Source: Geothrix sp. 21YS21S-2 (GTDB lineage: Bacteria; Acidobacteriota; Holophagae; Holophagales; Holophagaceae). Taken from it: a stretch of 64,000 nt of DNA. Both the position numbers and the translations under genes were made by a program. Below, in pieces: positions 10,311-64,000 of this stretch (positions within the stretch are counted from its first letter, which is position 1; the number at the start of each line of letters is the position of its first letter). The notes below the pieces were generated by a model. It was not told where the DNA came from, did not search any database, and was given only the letters and a program-made list of their open reading frames with translations. The stretch spans positions 778,001-842,000 of the forward strand of contig NZ_CP132910.1 of assembly GCF_030846775.1 (NCBI RefSeq), read 5' to 3'.

Positions 10311-10443
10311 GCATGGATTCTGCAGTTGAAGTCCCAGGGCTTGCTGAAATCTCGACAGCCACGCCTCCGTTGTGGACAGGCGGAGCACCGCCTGTCGCCC
10401 ACGCCGGCCCAAAACGGCCGCGCAGGTGAAAATCGAATAAGTC

Positions 10444-39297: not shown

Positions 39298-40587
39298 TTA
39301 CTTAGGCGTCACAGTCCCCACGGTGGGGACTGTTTGGGGATTGGTTGCCAAATTTCCCGCGCGGACAGCCCCGCTTGGTCCCGTTTCCTCAAGGTCCATG
39401 AGTTTCCCGAGCTTTTCCAGGGCCTCGGCCTGCTCCTTGGGACGCTCGATGATGTAGCGCTTGAAGGTGATCATGGGGTCCTCGTGGCCCATCATCTGGG
39501 CGATTTGGCCCAACGGCGTACCGATCTCCCAGAGCCCGGTGGCGAACGTGCGCCGCAGTCCGTGCGGCGTAAGGCGCTCGATCTTGAGCGCTCGAGCTCC
39601 AACCTGCACCATCTTTTTCGTCGAGCCCTCACCATGGGCCTTCCCATTCCGAGCGATCAGCAGGAGGCCCCTGGAGGGTTTCTTCTGATCGTTATGCCAT
39701 TGCGCAAGATAGGTCAGGAGCCAGGATGGAATTGGGATCTCTCGGATGGTCCGGTCCTTCACTTTCTTTCCTGTGGAGGCTGACTCCGCCACGATGAACA
39801 ATTGACGGCGCCAGTCCACGCGATCCCATTCGGCGTGGAGCGCTTCGTTCTCCCGCAGGCCCAGCCCCAGCATGAGCCGGGCGGCGATCCCCGCATGCGG
39901 GAAGAGATCCTTTTCCCGCTCCTTGCGAATGGTGTCCACGGCCGCCAGGAAGGGCCGCACCTGCTCCGGCCACAGGACCCCCTTGGAGGTTTGGCTGACA
40001 GGTAGTTTCCGAGCCTTGAAGGGCACCGCCTTCAACCGTCCGGTTTCCGCCCCCCAGCCCACCAGGGCCCGGAGTTGCGTGAGCACCTTGTTCCAGCCCC
40101 CCTCGGAGTGCCTGCGCACCACGTGGTCCTTGTCATCCGGCTTCTTGGCCCCGTTCTTCTTGAACCCCTTCCCCTCCTTGGCCAGGTAGCGAGCACGCAG
40201 GTCGTCCACAGCATCCGTGGTGAGTTGGTCCGCGGGCAAATTCAAGAATTCGTAGGTGTGCTGGTGGATGACGCCTCTCATCCACCGTCGATGCGAGGCA
40301 CTCACGCTGGAGGCCTTCCGTTCGTCCCACGCTTCCCAGAGCTTGACGAGCGTTGGCGCCGAGGGTTCAGCCTTGCCGAAGGCCAGGTCCTTCATGCGCC
40401 TGTGGAAGTCCGCAATCCAGGCCCGCGCGACCTCCTCCTTGCGCTCTCCGGTCGATCCCTTGAAGTGCTTGCCCCGGATCCGGAAGTCGTAAAGGAAATC
40501 ACCCTCAGGTGAGTTCTTGTAGAGCCAGTTCCGCAGGATGGGTTTGCCATCATCGGTGAACCAGGGGTCTTTCGGTCGCCGTCCCAT
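39298..40587 (-). CDS. int: Phage tyrosine integrase
   Basis: A 429-residue site-specific recombinase. The N-terminal part (about 1-190) holds the arm- and core-binding domains, and the catalytic domain follows. Catalytic residues read Arg245 (GLRENEA), His342 and Arg345 (PHGLRR), His368 (GHEDP) and the nucleophile Tyr378 (FKRYI). A 50-residue tail rich in Thr, Val and Pro follows. The stop codon lies 34 bases from attL, the typical int-att arrangement. It lies just downstream of the repressor gene, with a four-base gap. Confidence 0.95.
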   Translation of the reverse strand: MGRRPKDPWFTDDGKPILRNWLYKNSPEGDFLYDFRIRGKHFKGSTGERKEEVARAWIADFHRRMKDLAFGKAEPSAPTLVKLWEAWDERKASSVSASHRRWMRGVIHQHTYEFLNLPADQLTTDAVDDLRARYLAKEGKGFKKNGAKKPDDKDHVVRRHSEGGWNKVLTQLRALVGWGAETGRLKAVPFKARKLPVSQTSKGVLWPEQVRPFLAAVDTIRKEREKDLFPHAGIAARLMLGLGLRENEALHAEWDRVDWRRQLFIVAESASTGKKVKDRTIREIPIPSWLLTYLAQWHNDQKKPSRGLLLIARNGKAHGEGSTKKMVQVGARALKIERLTPHGLRRTFATGLWEIGTPLGQIAQMMGHEDPMITFKRYIIERPKEQAEALEKLGKLMDLEETGPSGAVRAGNLATNPQTVPTVGTVTPK

Positions 40588-42106: not shown

Positions 42107-42613
42107 ATGGCAACCACCGGCCAGCTCATCCGCATCGCGCGCCTCAAGGCCCACATGAGCCAAAACGAGCTTGGCAGGAAGCTTGGTGTTACCGGCTTCC
42201 TTGTCTCCCATTGGGAAGCGAACCGGAAGCCCGTGACCGACATGGACGCGCTCGCAGGGGCTCTCGGTGTCTCGGTTGAGGAGCTCGCTGGATTCAACGC
42301 GCCCCCATCCGGCGAGACCAGCCGAAGGCCTGCAAGGAAGGACGTGCCCCTCCTCCCCCCGAAGGCCGAAGGGTCGGTGGTCCTCCCATACATGACCATG
42401 GCCGGCCTGCTCCGGTGGATCCGAAATACCTACGGGATGAAGGTCTACTACGGGCAGGTCTACGACTGGATCGCCACGAAGAAGTTCCCGTGCTACGAGA
42501 ACCGCCTCAAGAGGAACCCCCAGGGCGAGATCACCTATCTGTTCGTCGCGAACGAGGTGGCGAAGTGGTTCGCCCAGATGTTGCCGCCCGTGAACCAGGA
42601 CGTTCCCGCATGA
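42107..42613 (+). CDS. XRE-family HTH regulator (Cro-like, extended)
   Basis: A 168-residue protein with a helix-turn-helix domain at residues 5-65 (SQNELGRKLGVTGFLVSHWE). A C-terminal domain of about 80 residues begins near the PYMTMAGLLRWIRN segment and may be a second DNA-binding module. Position directly behind the antirepressor suggests a Cro- or CII-like early regulator. Its exact role is not fixed by sequence. Confidence 0.82.
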   Translation: MATTGQLIRIARLKAHMSQNELGRKLGVTGFLVSHWEANRKPVTDMDALAGALGVSVEELAGFNAPPSGETSRRPARKDVPLLPPKAEGSVVLPYMTMAGLLRWIRNTYGMKVYYGQVYDWIATKKFPCYENRLKRNPQGEITYLFVANEVAKWFAQMLPPVNQDVPA

Positions 42614-46392: not shown

Positions 46393-46622
46393 TGATCCCG
46401 ATGACCCCGAAAGAACGAGAGTCCGTCCTCTATTCCCTGACCCTCCGCTGCGTTGGCCTTTGGGAAGGCATGCCCCCCGAAGCGATGAGCCGTCTTTGGA
46501 AGGCCGATCCGGTCGCATCGGGCCTCAACCGAGTGCTCTACCTCGACGATTGCATTCGGCCGCCGCGAGACCGCTGGTTCGTCAAGATCCGGGCTCCCAG
46601 GGACAGGAAGGTGTCCGCATGA
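46392..46622 (+). CDS. Small phage protein, unknown
   Basis: A 76-residue protein starting MIPMTPKERES, helical at the start and basic at the end. It overlaps the preceding stop by one base and the following methyltransferase start by four bases. No family is recognised; its place suggests a small partner of the methyltransferase or a spacer gene. Confidence 0.6.
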   Translation: MIPMTPKERESVLYSLTLRCVGLWEGMPPEAMSRLWKADPVASGLNRVLYLDDCIRPPRDRWFVKIRAPRDRKVSA

Positions 46623-48397
46623 CCGCCACCACCGTCTCCCTCTTCTGTGGCGCCGGGGGCGAATCCCTGGGGAAGCACGCCGCTCTCCGAGAGCTCGGCC
46701 TCGAGGACGCCACCCTGATCAGCCACGCTGTGAACCACTGGGACCTGGCGGTCCAGGCCCATGGGATCAACCTCCCGAACGTCCTGGTGCACCAGGAGGA
46801 CATCACCCAGGTTTCCGCCGCCACCTATGGTCTGACCCGGATCCAGCTCCTCTGGGCCTCCCCCAGCTGCGTGCACCACAGCCGGGCCCGGGGCGGGAAG
46901 CCTCGGGAGGACCAGCAGCGCTCCCACGCCTGGGAGGTCACGGACCGGTGGCTGCGGGTCGCCCAGGTGGATGTCCTTCTCATCGAGAACGTTCCCGAAT
47001 TCGAGGAATGGGGACCCCTCAACGAAGATGGCCAGCCCATCCAGTCCCGCAAGGGCGAGGCCTTTCAGGCCTGGGTCGCCGATCTCCGGTCCCTGGGCTA
47101 TGAGGTGGACTGGCGCGTCCTGTGCGCCGCCGACTTCGGGGCCCCCACCACCCGCCGGCGGTTCTTCCTCCAGGCCGTGAAGGACGGCAAGGGGATCCAC
47201 TGGCCGGAGCCCTCCCACCGGGACCCCCGGAAGCCCGCGGGGCTCTTCGACGCTGCCCTGCCGCCCTGGCGCACCGCCGCGGAGTGCATCGACTGGAGCA
47301 TCCCCTGCCCCAGCATCTTCGACAGGAAGAAGCCCCTGGCCGAGGCCACCCTCCGCCGGATCGCCGCCGGCGTGGTCCGCTACGTCGTGGAAGCGCGGCG
47401 CCCGTTCCTGGTGAACCTCACCCACGGGGGGCGGCTGGAGGACCTGGACGAGCCCTTCAAGACCATCACCGGGGCGAACCGCGGGGAGAAGGCCCTGGTG
47501 GTCCCCTCCCTGGTGGGCGTGGGCGGCCGGGCCGGGCAGTCCGGTCCCCGGGGCGCGGACGAGCCGATGCACACCGCCACCACGAAGGCGGATACAGCCC
47601 TTGTGGCGGCCTCCATGGTGAGCCTGCGGGGAACCTCCCCGGAGCAGATCAAGGGCAGCTCCGGGAGCGTGGAGGAGCCCGTCCGGACCATCTCCGCCGG
47701 CGGGGGGCATGCGGCCGTGGTCGCCGCCTTCCTGGCCAAGCACTACACAGGGGTGGTGGGGTCCAGCGTCGAGCAGCCCATGCCCACGGTCACCGCCACG
47801 GACCACAACGCCCTGGTGGCCGCCTCCCTGGTTCAAATGTGCTACGGCGAGCGCGACGGCCAGGCGCCGAGGGCCCTGGATATTGAACAGCCCCTGGGAA
47901 CCGTGGTGGCCGGCGGCATCAAGCACGGCCTGGTCGCCGCCCACATGATGAGCATCGACCAGCAGAGCACTGGGGCCAGTGCCTCCCGCGGGGCCGACGA
48001 ACCGATCAGCACGGCCACGACCAAGGCCCGCCATGCCCTGGTGGCCGCCTTCATCTCCCACTACTACGGCCAGGGCACCACCGCCCAGGACCCGGGCCAG
48101 CCCCTGCACACCATCACCACCCTGGCCCGCCACGGCTTGGTGACCGTGGAGATCGACGGCGAGACCTACATCATCACCGACATTGGAATGCGGATGCTGG
48201 AGCCCAAGGAGCTCGCCGCGGCCATGGGGTTCCCCGAATGGTACCGGTGGGTCATGGCAGGCGGGGCCCCGCTCACAAAGCGTGACCAGGTAAAGATGAT
48301 CGGCAACGCCGTTCCGCCACCCTTGGCCAAGGCCCTCGTCCTGGCCGTGGCCGGGCCCCGCCCCGAGCTCTTCGGGCTGAAGGAGCGGATCGCATGA
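46619..48397 (+). CDS. Phage DNA cytosine-5 methyltransferase with internal repeats
   Basis: A 592-residue methyltransferase. Motif I is VSLFCGAGG (residues 6-14), motif VI ENV at 123-125, motif VIII TTRRRFFL near 177 and motif X MIGNAVPP near 560. The catalytic loop reads SPSC, giving Cys84 with Ser instead of the usual Pro before it. Between about residues 275 and 500 are seven imperfect repeats of 33-38 residues with a DEPxxTIT-type core, in the place of the target-recognition domain. No partner endonuclease gene is adjacent, so it probably protects phage DNA from host restriction or modifies host sites. Confidence 0.93.
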   Translation: MTATTVSLFCGAGGESLGKHAALRELGLEDATLISHAVNHWDLAVQAHGINLPNVLVHQEDITQVSAATYGLTRIQLLWASPSCVHHSRARGGKPREDQQRSHAWEVTDRWLRVAQVDVLLIENVPEFEEWGPLNEDGQPIQSRKGEAFQAWVADLRSLGYEVDWRVLCAADFGAPTTRRRFFLQAVKDGKGIHWPEPSHRDPRKPAGLFDAALPPWRTAAECIDWSIPCPSIFDRKKPLAEATLRRIAAGVVRYVVEARRPFLVNLTHGGRLEDLDEPFKTITGANRGEKALVVPSLVGVGGRAGQSGPRGADEPMHTATTKADTALVAASMVSLRGTSPEQIKGSSGSVEEPVRTISAGGGHAAVVAAFLAKHYTGVVGSSVEQPMPTVTATDHNALVAASLVQMCYGERDGQAPRALDIEQPLGTVVAGGIKHGLVAAHMMSIDQQSTGASASRGADEPISTATTKARHALVAAFISHYYGQGTTAQDPGQPLHTITTLARHGLVTVEIDGETYIITDIGMRMLEPKELAAAMGFPEWYRWVMAGGAPLTKRDQVKMIGNAVPPPLAKALVLAVAGPRPELFGLKERIA

Positions 48398-49035
48398 CGG
48401 CCAAGCCCTTCATCATCACCGTCCCGGCCGTGCCCCCGGGTCTGAACATCACCAAGCGGATGCACTTCCGCCTCCTGGCCGAGCTCAAGGAGCGCTGGTG
48501 GGTCCTGATCCGGAACTCCCTGGTGAGCTGCCCCATCCCGGCCCCAACGGGCCGGCGCCGGGTGGATGTGATCGTCTGGACCGCCGCCCAGGTGGAGCAG
48601 GACCAGGACAACTTCGTGGGCGGGTGCAAGGAGGTCATCACCGACAACCTCAAGCCCCCCAAGTCCGAGATCTGCACCTACCGCAAGGGGCCCCGGGCCG
48701 GGCAGAAGTTCTCGCGCCGGCGGATCGGGCTCGGCCTGATCCTGGAGGACAACAAGAAGTGGCTGGAGTGGGGCGAATTCCGCCAGATCCAGGTGCACGC
48801 TGACGGAGAGGAGCGAACCTCCATCATCCTCACGGACTGCGACGAAGGCCTGACGGCCGAGCAGCGCCGGGACGAGGTGGCGCTCTACGCCCTCCAGGCC
48901 CGCCGGTTCCTGATCCGGATCCTGGCGCCCGGCATGGTGCCCGAGGTCGAGCAGGATGCTCGCGACGAGGCCGAGACGTTCATCAATGAGCCCCTTCCCG
49001 GGGCGCTGCAAGCATACGAGGTGCGCAATGCGTGA
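48394..49035 (+). CDS. RusA-like Holliday-junction resolvase
   Basis: A 213-residue protein with RusA-like acidic residues in VEQDQDNFVGGCKEVI (near 70-85) and the LEDNKKWLEW segment (near 120). This is the spacing of the D-x-D-N and later acidic pair in RusA nucleases. It would resolve branched DNA during phage replication. The C-terminal 70 residues are extra compared with E. coli RusA (120). The stop lies within the start of the initiator gene. Confidence 0.8.
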   Translation: MTAKPFIITVPAVPPGLNITKRMHFRLLAELKERWWVLIRNSLVSCPIPAPTGRRRVDVIVWTAAQVEQDQDNFVGGCKEVITDNLKPPKSEICTYRKGPRAGQKFSRRRIGLGLILEDNKKWLEWGEFRQIQVHADGEERTSIILTDCDEGLTAEQRRDEVALYALQARRFLIRILAPGMVPEVEQDARDEAETFINEPLPGALQAYEVRNA

Positions 49036-50356
49036 CTATGGCGTGATCCTGCCCTCCTTCTGGACGGGTGACACCGGACGAAAAATCCGGGCGCTCGGGG
49101 CCCAGGCACAGTTGATCGGGGCCTACCTGCTGACCGCTCCGGGCAGCAACATGATCGGCCTTTACTATCTCCCCCTGCCCACCCTGGCGCATGAGGCCAA
49201 CACCCCGGAGGACATGGCCCTCCTCCTGCTTGAGCACCTGAACGGCCTGGGGTTCGCGGCCTACGACCGCAAGAGCGAGACGGTCTGGGTCAGGAATATG
49301 GGGTTCTACCAGGTCGGGGAGAAGATCCAGCAGAAGGACAAGCGCTGGCCAGCCATCTTGAAGGAGGCCACGAACTACAGCGGTTCTCCCCATTTCGAGG
49401 GATGGCTCTCTGTCTATGGTGCGCCGTGGAACCTGGATGAGGCATTCCTGGCTGGAGCCGTTCTCGAATCCCCTTCGAAGGGGGTTCAGAGGGCCATCCG
49501 GAAGCGGAAGCAATCCCCTCTGAAGGGGGTTCCGTCCATGGATGAGCCCGAGCAGGAAGACCCTCTGAAGGCATTCACGCCGACCGGAAACCAAGATTCG
49601 GAAAACCAGGAAGCCCCTTCGAAGGGGGTAGCCGAGGACGGAAAACCTGGATCCGAACCCCCTTCGATGCCAAGAGCAAGAGCAAGAGCAAGAGCAGAAG
49701 CAGGAGCAGGAACAAGAGCAGAAGCAGAAGCATCAACCGGCGCGTCGGAGCCCCCGGCCCCCGCCCCCAGACCAAGAGATGCCGCCGCTGCCGCCGCCCT
49801 TCCCCCCTTCCTTGAGAAGCGCTTGAAGGAGCTGGGAGTCTCCGGTCAATACCCCCAGCAGCTCCTGGAGAAGCTGGGCCGCGTCGGGCTCCAATGCGCG
49901 GTCTACAAGATCTCCACGAAGCCTGGTGGGCGGAACCCCCCGGGCCTCCTCCTGACCCACGGCTCCGAACTGGCATCCGAGGGGAAGGCGCTCCTTGAGG
50001 AAGCGGTCGCCGTGGCCGGGAAAGGGGCCCCTGGAGCGTGGACCGATCCCCGATGGGGGAAACTCCCGCCGGAACTCCGTGACGACCTGGAGGCGCAGAC
50101 AGCCTGGGCGGACTGGATCCGGGTGGAGCGACAGTGGGCCGCCGCCCGGGGCGGCGCCGGGGAGGAAGAGGCCGGCCTCACCGAGAAGGGCGCGCGCCGG
50201 ACGCTCCTGAAGATCCTCCAGGACCACCATCCGGACCCCTCGGCCCTGGGCCAGGACGTCCAGAAACGCATGGCGGCCATGCCCGCCGCCCTGCAGGCCC
50301 CCGTCGCCAAATTCATGGCACTCACCGCGGCCCTTGGCCTTGGAGGAAAAGCATGA
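49028..50356 (+). CDS. Phage replication initiator/helicase-loader-like protein
   Basis: A 442-residue protein. The N-terminal 140 residues (MRDYGVILPSFWTG...AQLIGAYLL) resemble the winged-helix part of phage replisome organisers and DnaD-like loaders. The middle (about 150-260) is low-complexity with repeated PSKGV/PLKGV words and an Arg/Ala/Glu-rich stretch encoded by purine-rich DNA. The C-terminal 160 residues are helical. Direct evidence for an initiator is modest; the case is strengthened by palindromic repeats inside the gene and by its place between RusA and Mor-like genes. Confidence 0.65.
   Translation: MRDYGVILPSFWTGDTGRKIRALGAQAQLIGAYLLTAPGSNMIGLYYLPLPTLAHEANTPEDMALLLLEHLNGLGFAAYDRKSETVWVRNMGFYQVGEKIQQKDKRWPAILKEATNYSGSPHFEGWLSVYGAPWNLDEAFLAGAVLESPSKGVQRAIRKRKQSPLKGVPSMDEPEQEDPLKAFTPTGNQDSENQEAPSKGVAEDGKPGSEPPSMPRARARARAEAGAGTRAEAEASTGASEPPAPAPRPRDAAAAAALPPFLEKRLKELGVSGQYPQQLLEKLGRVGLQCAVYKISTKPGGRNPPGLLLTHGSELASEGKALLEEAVAVAGKGAPGAWTDPRWGKLPPELRDDLEAQTAWADWIRVERQWAAARGGAGEEEAGLTEKGARRTLLKILQDHHPDPSALGQDVQKRMAAMPAALQAPVAKFMALTAALGLGGKA
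49466..49736. repeat. Palindromic iterons plus polypurine tract: candidate phage origin
   Basis: Copies based on CCCCTTCGAAGGGGG occur at 49470-49484 and 49614-49628. A variant CCCCTCTGAAGGGGG lies at 49515-49529. Degenerate copies lie at 49561-49571 and 49658-49667. Spacing is about 45 bases, and the perfect copies are true palindromes. Directly after them, 49674-49732 is almost purely purine with interspersed C on the plus strand. Iterons followed by an asymmetric tract inside the initiator gene match the layout of the lambda origin within gene O. Function is inferred. Confidence 0.55.
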
Positions 50357-59983: not shown

Positions 59984-60159
59984 AGAATGGAAAGCAACCC
60001 ATTCCATCCATTGCCCTTGCACCGCGAGATGGGCAGCCATTGCCCGCTCGGGTCCTTCCGGGGGGGGGCGACGAGGGTGCTCGCGCAAACCTCGCTGGAT
60101 TTCTAGCGCCAGGCCGCGGAAGTCATTTCCGCTTCCTCGTGGGGTCCGGGGGTGCCTAA
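59980..60159 (+). CDS. Small phage protein, unknown
   Basis: A 59-residue Pro/Gly-rich protein starting in an ATGA overlap with the preceding stop and ending in an overlap with the Nu1 start. Coupling on both sides suggests translation. No family is recognised. Confidence 0.45.
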   Translation: MKNGKQPIPSIALAPRDGQPLPARVLPGGGDEGARANLAGFLAPGRGSHFRFLVGSGGA

Positions 60160-60650
60160 TGGACCTTGCCCGGCTGTCCCAAAAGGAGTTGGCCAAGCTT
60201 CTGCGGGTCGAAGATCGAACGGTTCGAAATCTCAAGGACGAGAAGATCCCCTGCCACGGTGAAGGCCGCGGGATGTATTACGTTTGGGACGAAGTGGAGC
60301 CGTGGTGGTTTGATCGCCGGATGCGTTTGGTCGGCCTCAAAAAGACGGACGCGGTTGGAGTTCCCGACATTTTCATTTCCGAGGCGCGCAAGGCGGCAGC
60401 GGATGCGGAAATTGCGGAAATGAAAGCGGAAACGATGAAGGGAGGGTTGTTGGAGGCGGCCGCAGTCGAGGTGATCTGGTCCGAACACATCGCCATCGCC
60501 AAGGCCAAGCTCCGATCCATCAGCCCCCGGGTCGCCGTCCAGCTCATGGACGGAATGACCGTTCAGGAGCGCAAGGCCTTGATCGATGAGGGGATCTTCG
60601 CGGCCATGGCGGAGCTGGAGCGCGGCGAGGATGAGGCCGCGACCGCATGA
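60159..60650 (+). CDS. Terminase small subunit (Nu1-like)
   Basis: A 163-residue protein with an N-terminal helix-turn-helix (LSQKELAKLLRVEDRTVRNLK) as in lambda Nu1, followed by a helical dimerisation region (AAADAEIAEMKAE...). It would recognise the phage packaging site (cos). Its stop overlaps the large-subunit start by four bases. Confidence 0.9.
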   Translation: MDLARLSQKELAKLLRVEDRTVRNLKDEKIPCHGEGRGMYYVWDEVEPWWFDRRMRLVGLKKTDAVGVPDIFISEARKAAADAEIAEMKAETMKGGLLEAAAVEVIWSEHIAIAKAKLRSISPRVAVQLMDGMTVQERKALIDEGIFAAMAELERGEDEAATA

Positions 60651-62542
60651 ACCTGGTGAAGCTGGCCACCTCCGAGCACCTGGACCGGGCCCGTACCGTG
60701 CTTCGCCGCGCGCGCCGCGCCTGGTCCCCCCCGCCCCGGATGAGCGTGACGGAATGGGCCGACACCTACCGCCAGATGAGCGCGGAGAACTGCGCAGAGC
60801 CCGGCCGGTTCAACTCAGCGCGTGCGCCCTACCAGCGGGGCCCGATGAATGCCATCTCGGATCCCCTGATCGAGACGGTCACCATCATGAGCTCGGCCCA
60901 GGTGGGCAAGAACGAGATCTGCCACAACGGCCTGGGCTGGATCATCGACCTCTACCCCGGGCCGGCCCTGTGGGTGGCTCCGACCGAGAAGGCCGCGGAG
61001 AAGTGGAGCAAGACCCGCCTCGCCCCCATGCTCCGGGACACTCCGCGCCTAAAGGGGAAGGTGGCGGATCCGAAGAGCCGGGACACCGGAAACACGATCC
61101 TGGAGAAGCAGTTCCCGGAAGGCCTGCTCTTCATCGTCGGGTCCAACGCCCCCAGCGGCCTGGCCTCCCAGCCGATCCAGTACGTTTTCGGGGATGAAAT
61201 TGACCGAATGGAGGCCTCGGCCGGCACCGAGGGCGACATCCTAGACCTCGCCAAGAAGCGGACCACCACGTACGTGGGCCGTCGAAAGCACGTTTGGGTG
61301 AGCACGCCCGGCATCAAGGGGGTCTCCCGCATCTTCAAGAGCTGGGAGCAGTCGGACCAGCGCCGGTACTTCATGCCCTGCCCCCATTGCGGGGAACGGA
61401 TCACCTTCCGCTGGAAGGATCCCGATGGAACCTACCGGGTGATCTGGCCCCACGAACCCGAGGAGCCCGAGAAGGCCTATTACGTCTGCGACCGGTGCGG
61501 CGGCGTGATCACCGACGCCCACAAGCACAAGATGTTGGAAGCCGGGGAATGGATCGCCGGCCGCCCCGAGGTGAAGGGGCACGCCGGGTTCAACCTGAAC
61601 GAGCTCTACAGCCCCTGGCGAACCTTCGGGGATGTGGCCAAGGCCTTCCTCGAGGCCAAGGCCGGCGGCCCGATGTCCCTCATGGTGTGGGTGAACACCT
61701 CCCTGGGCGAGCCCTGGGACCCCCGGGACGGGGAAGGTCTCCAGGTCCAGGGCCTCAAGGCGCGCCGGGAGCACTACGCCGCCGAGGTCCCCATTGGCGT
61801 GGCCTATCTCACCCTGGGCGGCGACATGCAGGACGACCGCTGGGAGTACATCGTCCGGGGCTGGGGCCACGGTGGGGAATCCTGGCTCATCAAGCGCGGC
61901 ATGGTCCTGGGCAACCCCGCCATGGAGACATTTTGGGCCGATGTGGATCAGGTCCTCTCAGGAGAGTTCCGCCACGTGTCCGGATACCCCATGCGCATCA
62001 CCAGCGCCTGCCTGGACTCGGGAGGCCACTACTCCAAACAGGTCAAGGCCTTCTGCAGCCCACGGAGCAACCGACGCATTTTCGCCATCCAGGGGGCGAG
62101 CACCGCCCTGCAGAAGCCCGTCATGCGTTCCAACAAGAAGACCAAGCTGTGGCGTCTGGATACGATCGCCCTCAAGGACACGTTCTTCGCATGCCTGCGC
62201 GTCCAGGGCCCCGGGCCCGGGTTCGTCCATTGGCCGGACAACCTCCTGGACGACTATTTCGACCAGATCACAGCTGAAAAGGTCGTGTACCAGACCCGCA
62301 ATGGCGCGACCAGGCGCTCCTACAAGAAAGTCACCGAGGACGCGCGGAACGAGGCCCTGGACTGCGAAGTCTACGCCATGGCGGCCTGGGAGATCATTTC
62401 CGTGGGGACGGATGACATTGAGCGTGTCCTCAAGGCCCTCGCGGAGCAGGTTGGCCGCCCCCAGGGCTCCGGCCCGGCTGCACTTCCGTCCGGAAATACG
62501 GGCCACAGGACCCGCCGGGTGCGCAGCGCCGGCATCACCTGA
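60647..62542 (+). CDS. Terminase large subunit, GpA family
   Basis: A 631-residue packaging motor. The ATPase domain has a Walker-A-like SSAQVGKNE near residue 85 and Walker B VFGDEID near 180. A zinc-finger segment CPHCGERITF...YVCDRCGGVI lies near 245-290. The nuclease domain covers about 380-600 with acidic residues (LGGDMQDDRW, TSACLDSGGH, EALDCEVYAM). It cuts at cos and pumps DNA into the prohead. The family implies cohesive-end packaging. Length and order are normal. Confidence 0.95.
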   Translation: MNLVKLATSEHLDRARTVLRRARRAWSPPPRMSVTEWADTYRQMSAENCAEPGRFNSARAPYQRGPMNAISDPLIETVTIMSSAQVGKNEICHNGLGWIIDLYPGPALWVAPTEKAAEKWSKTRLAPMLRDTPRLKGKVADPKSRDTGNTILEKQFPEGLLFIVGSNAPSGLASQPIQYVFGDEIDRMEASAGTEGDILDLAKKRTTTYVGRRKHVWVSTPGIKGVSRIFKSWEQSDQRRYFMPCPHCGERITFRWKDPDGTYRVIWPHEPEEPEKAYYVCDRCGGVITDAHKHKMLEAGEWIAGRPEVKGHAGFNLNELYSPWRTFGDVAKAFLEAKAGGPMSLMVWVNTSLGEPWDPRDGEGLQVQGLKARREHYAAEVPIGVAYLTLGGDMQDDRWEYIVRGWGHGGESWLIKRGMVLGNPAMETFWADVDQVLSGEFRHVSGYPMRITSACLDSGGHYSKQVKAFCSPRSNRRIFAIQGASTALQKPVMRSNKKTKLWRLDTIALKDTFFACLRVQGPGPGFVHWPDNLLDDYFDQITAEKVVYQTRNGATRRSYKKVTEDARNEALDCEVYAMAAWEIISVGTDDIERVLKALAEQVGRPQGSGPAALPSGNTGHRTRRVRSAGIT

Positions 62543-62817: not shown

Positions 62818-64000
62818 GCCGCCGGCAGACCATCGAGGCGATCAAGGCCGCAGTCCAGCCGACCCTCCTGGACGAGGCCATCGGCTTCTTCAGCCCCCGG
62901 CTGAAGCGGGAGCGGATCCAGAACCGCGCGACCGTGGCCATGATCGGCTCTTGGAACGGCGGTTCCCGGTCGCGGCGGGCCACGGCGGAATGGAACACGC
63001 CCACCGGTTCCGCCGATGCGGACCTCCTGTACGACCTGGAAACCATGCGGGATCGCTCCCGTGACCTGGGCCGGAACGTGCCCCTGGCCTGCGGGGCCAT
63101 CAACACGGTGGTCACCAACGTGATCGGCACCGGAATCCAAGCACGCCCCCGCATCAACGCGGAGCTGCTGGGCATGACCCCGGAGGAGGCCGACGCCTGG
63201 CAGAAGAACACCCGGCGGGAATGGGAGCTCTTCTTCGAATCAACCGACTGCGACATCACCCGGAACGATGATGGCTATGGCCTCCAGGGCATCGTCTTCC
63301 GCTCCGCGCTGGAGAGTGGGGACGTCTTCTCACTCCTCCCCCGAAAGAAGTTCGGGAAGGAGGCCTACGGCCTGAAGATCCAGGTCATCGAGGCCGATCG
63401 GGTCTGCAACCCCCAGAGCCAGAGGGAAACCGACACCTTCGCCGGCGGGGTCGAGATGGATGTGGATGGGGCCCCGGTGGCCTACCACATCCTGCGCCAG
63501 CACCCTGGATCCATCGCACCCTCCGCGCGCGTCTGGGACAGGGTTCAGGCCTACACCCCCCGGGGAACGCGCCGAATCCTCCATCACTTCGACCGCCGGC
63601 GGCCGGGGCAGACCCGCGGGTATCCCTACCTATCGCCAGTGATCGAGCTCCTCAAGCAGCTGGGCCACTACACGGATGCGGAGGTCATGGCCGCGGTCCT
63701 GAACGGCATGTTCTCGGTCTTCGTGACATCGCCCGACGGGAACGGACTGAATTCCGTCTCCCTCAACGACGATTCGAGCAGCCCTTCCAAGGACAACGAG
63801 GTGAAGCTCGGATCCGGCTCGATCGTGGATCTTCTCCCCGGGGAGAAGATCGAAATCGCGGACCCGAAGAGGCCCAACCAAGCCTTCGATCCCTTCGTGA
63901 TGGCCATCCTGCGCCAGATCGGCGTGGCCCTGGAGCTTCCCTTCGAAGTCCTGGTGAAACACTTCACCTCCAGCTACACCGCCGCCCGGGCCGCCCTCCA
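62814..64000 (+). CDS. Phage portal protein, lambda family (cut by window end)
   Basis: An open frame of at least 395 residues with the lambda portal layout. It begins TLLDEAIGFFSPRLKRERIQ and continues with RDLGRNVPLACGAINTVVTNVIG near residue 85 and a region around SALESGDVFSLLPRK (near 165). It reaches ALELPFEVLVKHFTSSYTAARAA at the window edge. The family is usually 500-530 residues, so about a quarter is missing. It forms the ring through which DNA enters the head. The ATG overlaps the previous stop. Confidence 0.95.
   Translation, partial: MSRRQTIEAIKAAVQPTLLDEAIGFFSPRLKRERIQNRATVAMIGSWNGGSRSRRATAEWNTPTGSADADLLYDLETMRDRSRDLGRNVPLACGAINTVVTNVIGTGIQARPRINAELLGMTPEEADAWQKNTRREWELFFESTDCDITRNDDGYGLQGIVFRSALESGDVFSLLPRKKFGKEAYGLKIQVIEADRVCNPQSQRETDTFAGGVEMDVDGAPVAYHILRQHPGSIAPSARVWDRVQAYTPRGTRRILHHFDRRRPGQTRGYPYLSPVIELLKQLGHYTDAEVMAAVLNGMFSVFVTSPDGNGLNSVSLNDDSSSPSKDNEVKLGSGSIVDLLPGEKIEIADPKRPNQAFDPFVMAILRQIGVALELPFEVLVKHFTSSYTAARAAL

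Follow-up and report, generated by a model that had tools for sequence, protein, structure and literature searches.

Does the repeat-rich middle of a prophage gene in Geothrix sp. 21YS21S-2 serve as the prophage's replication origin, and are its repeats kept as DNA or as the peptides they encode? The gene lies in the 64-kb stretch of DNA analysed here, which we call the window, within a prophage with integrase (39298-40587, minus strand), repressor-like (42107-42613), antirepressor-like and terminase genes (60159-62542). A first-pass annotation, made from the letters alone, had proposed an origin inside the initiator gene, with palindromic iterons followed by a strand-separating tract.

The initiator gene

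The gene runs from 49028 to 50356 on the plus strand and encodes 442 residues. The frame had been chosen correctly, as homologues share its methionine and not the upstream ATG of a mechanical 466-aa ORF. Profile searches matched the protein to phrog_1701, the DnaD-like helicase loaders (E 5.4e-27, residues 1-194), and to phrog_25210 (E 1.9e-31, residues 1-156); besides the helicase-loader PHROG, the first 160-190 residues match two unnamed PHROGs. Judged by these matches, the gene product is a relative of initiators and helicase loaders, and the gene can be described as that of a DnaD-like phage helicase loader or replisome organiser. Pfam (E 0.01) and NCBIfam gave no family for the protein, and searching the PDB by sequence gave no convincing relative.

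Codons 1-137 (49028-49438, plus strand) encode a conserved N-terminal domain, predicted to be a winged helix-turn-helix from the alignment, an AlphaFold2 model and structural matches. The model, with a pLDDT of 89.8, matches the RepA_N initiators 4pql, 5kbj and 4pt7 at Z 8.1-8.3, but CRP-type winged helices reach Z 9.3, so the likeness to the RepA_N fold is no proof of membership. The C-terminal domain (49740-50356, plus strand) is variable and fell into no known family in Pfam, NCBIfam and PHROG searches. Across the gene family all 3916 pairs of N-terminal domains are related at E 1e-3, whereas 3% of the C-terminal pairs are related and the C-terminal domains form 31 groups. In E. coli genomes many other genes match the PhiR5_2 gene through its 3' part alone. 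We infer that the N-terminal domain and the origin form a cassette that is joined to differing helicase-loading C-terminal domains.

Enterobacterial relatives and named phages carry a DnaC-type gene or a primase/helicase gene next door, downstream of the initiator gene. No helicase gene was recognised near the initiator gene in the window. Family match and translation identify a C5 cytosine methyltransferase at 46460-48397, the middle of which is a long run of similar repeated segments.

The boxes

Palindromes recurring at about 45-base spacing had been reported within the gene, and they are present: as 11-mers the repeats start at 49466, 49511, 49556, 49610 and 49655, with spacings of 45, 45, 54 and 45. 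CCCCTTCGAAGGGG is perfect at 49470-49483 and 49614-49627, with a two-mismatch copy at 49515-49528. Genome-wide counts by pattern search found two copies of this 14-mer in the 5.25-Mb host genome, both inside the initiator gene. It is therefore not a dispersed repeat, and a REP- or MITE-like palindrome was ruled out on this count.

The repeat unit had been taken to be a 15-bp palindrome, but comparison with homologues corrected it to an 11-bp box, GAAGCCCCTTC. Its outer parts are symmetric (GAAG...CTTC), and both orientations are used. Each palindrome in the window consists of two abutting inverted copies of the box, which is how the palindromes arise. All lie on the plus strand. The first pair (49466-49487), a 22-bp near-palindrome, is formed by GAATCCCCTTC and GAAGGGGGTTC with one mismatch each; the second (49511-49532) by a degenerate CAATCCCCTCT and by GAAGGGGGTTC with one mismatch; the third (49556-49577), degenerate, by GAAGACCCTCT and GAAGGCATTCA; and the fourth (49610-49631) by a perfect GAAGCCCCTTC and by GAAGGGGGTAG with three mismatches. 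The last box, GAACCCCCTTC (49655-49665), has one mismatch. At up to one mismatch the gene holds five copies of the box against 0.36 expected, and none of 1000 synonymous shuffles reached five. All five boxes are in the same reading frame, and the translation bears out the peptide words PSKGV and PLKGV first read from the repeats, the boxes spelling PSKGV-like words. The N-terminal domain of the gene contains no box within three mismatches. Elsewhere in the window there is a perfect 22-nt palindrome, ATCTTCTCCCCGGGGAGAAGAT (63829-63850), and there are three near-perfect G+C-rich palindromes, at 10375, 44146 and 56071.

The gene was compared with homologues from 21 viral contigs, with an overlapping second set of 80 loci kept of 442 viral relatives detected, with a prophage from the host's own genus (L107) and with named phages of Klebsiella, E. 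coli and Acinetobacter. A scan of genome contigs gave only two relatives. The same box is found in relatives from phages of Acinetobacter, E. coli and Klebsiella and from many metagenomes. In most relatives the boxes form compact head-to-tail tandems of two to four, with a step of 11 nt, at two places, about nt 150-200 and about nt 400-480 of the gene. The first site encodes EGASKGLRR, on residues 61-73 of the AlphaFold2 winged helix, which our reading of the fold predicts to be the recognition helix; the second lies in the linker codons. The window gene and L107 are without the EGASKGL codons, and the linker boxes of the window are more degenerate and more dispersed than those of its relatives. 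A box pair also occurs 28-59 nt upstream of the initiator start in Acinetobacter phages (L256, 32804-32825; L258, 16993-17014), in L030, where the boxes stand at -59 and -48 of its gene, and in L110; in L030 and the Acinetobacter phages it possibly serves autoregulation.

Selection on the boxes was examined in 70 non-redundant genes, fetched by protein without reference to boxes. These genes hold 101 perfect boxes, where 200 within-gene synonymous shuffles predict 2.6 (1.1 + 1.5), and 262 kb of their flanks hold none. A box within one mismatch is present in 69 of the 70, and 61 have boxes at both sites at that tolerance. Neighbouring boxes lie exactly 11 nt apart in 153 pairs; the next commonest spacing accounts for 10. 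A step of 11 nt is not divisible by three, so the reading frame shifts from one copy to the next (SPFEAPSKPLRS). When a 26-bp array was searched for in 2.9 million viral contigs, 32 of 33 stretches fell inside this initiator family. In related phages it is the DNA repeats that persist, while the peptide words do not, the pattern that the first-pass annotation had named as the mark of selection on DNA.

The one stretch outside the family (L133, 3023-4285) has array and tract where a 64-aa frame ends. Close by is another gene (MPNRIL...) that we take, on our own reading rather than a database match, to resemble a replication gene, and this gene has its own AGCAAATG repeats and GTAGTCGTAGTCGGAGGC tract. 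Judging from this contig, the layout may be common to other initiator families.

The triplet-phased tract

The repeats had been said to be followed by a nearly pure purine tract. A tract is indeed present at 49670-49735 on the plus strand, but its purity had been overstated, as 52 of the 66 bases are purines (79%); 34 of the 66 are G or C (52%). It is better described by an A at every third base than by its purines. The tract, PRARARARAEAGAGTRAEAEAS, consists of 22 consecutive codons ending in A, encodes RARARAEAGAG, and its complement reads TnnTnn throughout. This run of 22 is the longest A-every-third-base run on either strand of the window. In 5000 synonymous shuffles the mean run was 3.0 and the maximum 7, and none reached 22. 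The first phased A stands 7 nt past the end of the last box, as in relatives.

In most relatives the last box is followed by (CARGAR)n. Among 89 non-redundant genes, which include pattern-fetched loci, the longest A-every-third-base run has a median of 13 inside the gene, compared with 5 in each flank, and in 85 genes the run inside surpasses both flanks. The phased A occupies codon position 2 (EQEQEQ) in most genes, a phasing that protein selection could explain. In seven genes it falls on codon position 3, a place at which it is mostly synonymous: the window gene (22 codons), L141 (GTGTGT, 22), L119 (13), L078 (GAGAGA, 12), L129 (12), L103 (8) and L020 (8). For five of these the observed run was reached in none of 2000 synonymous shuffles, and for the other two in 2 of 2000.

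Of 78 position-2 genes, 58 have their first phased A 7 nt beyond the last box, as have six of the seven position-3 genes; in 10 more genes the distance is 18 nt (7 + 11). A tract at the 7-nt distance may read EQEQ, GTGT, GAGA or RARA. The distance is constant across codon phases, so it is the DNA spacing that is fixed and the reading frame that is free. A few relatives (L031, L132) depart from this phasing, their A recurring at every sixth base instead of every third. The frame in which boxes and tract are read varies while the DNA and the spacing stay unchanged, which shows that the boxes, the tract and the spacing between them are selected as DNA.

Divergent relatives

A relative from a Klebsiella phage (L145, 30% identity) and 80 close relatives on viral contigs have the common layout with another repeat, given as GAAAGGGTT(TC), at both sites. 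The three genes of this subfamily that were tested have no GAAGCCCCTTC within one mismatch. Their helix codons hold two copies of GAAAGGGTT with an 11-nt step between them, the linker holds one more, and the tract comes next. In the per-gene tests of this 9-mer the counts were 3, 1 and 0 of 1000 shuffles, which gives the change of box moderate support gene by gene. Nothing close to the L145 gene was found in E. coli genomes.

Inspection alone found palindromic linker repeats (GATACCCTATC and GGTATCGATAC) and then an A-rich tract in the more distant Geobacillus E2 and Exiguobacterium vB_EalM-137. The linker of gp71 of the Gordonia phage Ohgeesy (L253, 1995-3008) has AAGGGTGGC and CTAACCCC repeats and then a ACTACCGCTACC tract, with an A at about every third base. 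A gut phage relative (L252, about 2330-2640) has linker repeats with TACCCTATCGATAGGGTA, followed by CCAACACCAGCATCAACAACA, a tract that is non-purine yet has an A at every third base.

Discussion

Support for a candidate origin in the window gene comes from the selection at the DNA level, the fixed spacing of boxes and tract, the identity of the initiator and the neighbouring DnaC-type, primase or helicase genes. The RepA_N-like fold, the related N-terminal and varied C-terminal domains, the parallel with DnaD and TnnT, and the change of repeat in the L145 subfamily add to it. Against it stand three features of the window: it has no boxes in the recognition-helix codons, its linker boxes are more degenerate and dispersed than those of relatives, and no helicase gene is recognised. 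The merely moderate per-gene significance of the box change in the L145 subfamily and the sixth-base phasing of L031 and L132 also weigh against it. We consider it highly probable that the prophage has its replication origin at 49466-49735, within the very gene that encodes its initiator. The minimum of cumulative GC skew falls within 0.7 kb of the tract in L256, L257 and L258, two of which are related Acinetobacter phages; we did not count this as evidence because a switch in transcription lies close by.

From the arrangement we infer that the protein binds the boxes, that opening and loading occur at the tract and that replication starts within 49466-49735. The N-terminal winged-helix domain would bind the double-stranded 11-bp boxes, usually about one helical turn apart, and the resulting nucleoprotein array would open the adjacent tract. 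The phased A/T triplets of the tract would serve as a site for strand-specific loading, and the exchangeable C-terminal domain would bring in host or phage helicase machinery.

The boxes might instead be operator sites for transcription of the gene itself or of a neighbour, with replication beginning elsewhere. A DNA-binding winged helix is predicted for the protein, and the upstream box pair of relatives such as L030 and L110 would suit this role. The main arrays, however, are found 150-480 nt into the gene, few boxes stand upstream of it and the fixed link to the phased triplet tract would be left unexplained. We regard operators alone as unlikely, while autoregulation could accompany origin function. 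It is less likely still that the common DNA is a recombination hot spot for swapping the C-terminal part of the initiator. Its site exactly between a universal N-terminal domain and highly exchangeable C-terminal domains fits such a role, as does the lone 3' match of PhiR5_2, but a hot spot would not account for the array in the N-terminal codons, the 11-bp period, the flips of orientation or the change of repeat at both sites in the L145 subfamily. Recombination is probably a consequence of the common DNA and not its cause.

The two box arrays could also pair in the mRNA and act as an RNA element, since helix-codon and linker arrays are often mutually inverted. However, the linker boxes of L020, L054, L068, L071, L108 and the L145 subfamily share their GGG orientation with the helix site, the first array is missing from the window, and there is no credible Rfam match at the site. 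With orientations inconsistent with pairing, we rejected an RNA element, which seems very improbable. The least credible reading is that of peptide repeats in a disordered linker together with a codon microsatellite, kept by protein-level selection or by drift. The single frame of the five window boxes and their PSKGV-like words agree with it, and hexamer repeats, as is generally known, slip easily. It is contradicted by the synonymous shuffles, by 11-nt steps read in different frames and by the differing peptides that come from identical DNA at an identical distance; on these grounds peptide-level selection was ruled out. An origin kept as DNA remains the reading that we prefer.

We found no published description of the box GAAGCCCCTTC or of the origin of this initiator family, in a literature search of incomplete coverage that lacked most subscription papers; the papers listed for the box sequences all dealt, judging by their titles, with other subjects. 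An origin inside an initiator gene is a known kind of arrangement, and what we would claim as new, provisionally, is the family-level signature. We tentatively suggest that the family may represent a widespread, undescribed class of phage origins, in which the binding boxes encode the recognition helix (in most members), a phased-triplet single-strand element stands at 7 nt, and box and initiator co-evolve. If this is true, the co-evolution would give predictable groups of origin compatibility. The signature (an array of 11-bp boxes, 7 nt, phased triplets) locates the probable origin in many unannotated temperate phages, among them phages of Acinetobacter, Klebsiella and E. coli. The family also offers a clear example of a DNA stretch that is under constraint as DNA although the peptides translated from it are unrelated.

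Comparison with known systems

The best reading from our analysis is that the origin would work like that of lambda O or those of RepA_N plasmids, while being a proven member of neither. The lambda O arrangement, proposed at the outset, holds as to layout, but RepA_N origins and the DnaA-trio/DnaD element are as near as parallels. The O gene of lambda and of Stx phages has iterons and an opening region at its middle (PMC7466680). The window gene is alike in having repeats and a putative strand-opening tract inside an initiator gene, between the N- and C-terminal parts. Its box, as had been recognised, is not the lambda iteron, being 11 bp long and of another sequence. The tract, with 34 of 66 bases G or C and its triplet phasing, differs from the AT-rich one of lambda, and relatives of the gene have a second array in the codons of the recognition helix. 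The protein has no Pfam match to the phage O protein family at E 0.01.

RepA_N initiators have DnaD-like folds and a linker encoded by the origin (PMC5703833). In pSK41 Rep the winged helix of the N-terminal domain binds boxes central in rep and the C-terminal domain is genus-specific; Rep without the origin-coded linker still functions in trans (PMC5703833). Boxes in mid-gene and a variable, exchangeable C-terminal domain are shared with our family. The differences are that ours are phages rather than plasmids and have regular 11-bp boxes and a phased tract; nor does the protein match the RepA_N sequence domain in Pfam at E 0.01. With the loaders and replisome organisers of PHROG 1701 the protein shares N-terminal homology, and its distant members in Geobacillus E2 and Exiguobacterium vB_EalM-137 have, by inspection, palindromic repeats and a tract in the linker; their box sequences differ. 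The aba element of BstA is unrelated in sequence.

In B. subtilis, DnaD binds TnnT pairs in single-stranded form, on the strand that faces the DnaA-trios (PMC10201434). The resemblance to this element of oriC lies in an A or T at every third base beside double-stranded initiator boxes: in the window a repeated A-triplet adjoins the putative initiator boxes, with 22 triplets beginning 7 nt from the last box. Unlike its bacterial parallel, the window tract is inside a phage coding sequence, is longer and hexameric, and stands by phage boxes rather than DnaA boxes. Together with the proposal of a new class, and with the same reserve, we suggest that its phased-triplet element may be the phage counterpart of the DnaA-trio/DnaD element. 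If so, the trio/TnnT logic of bacterial chromosome origins would extend to phages, where it can be tested on small plasmids.
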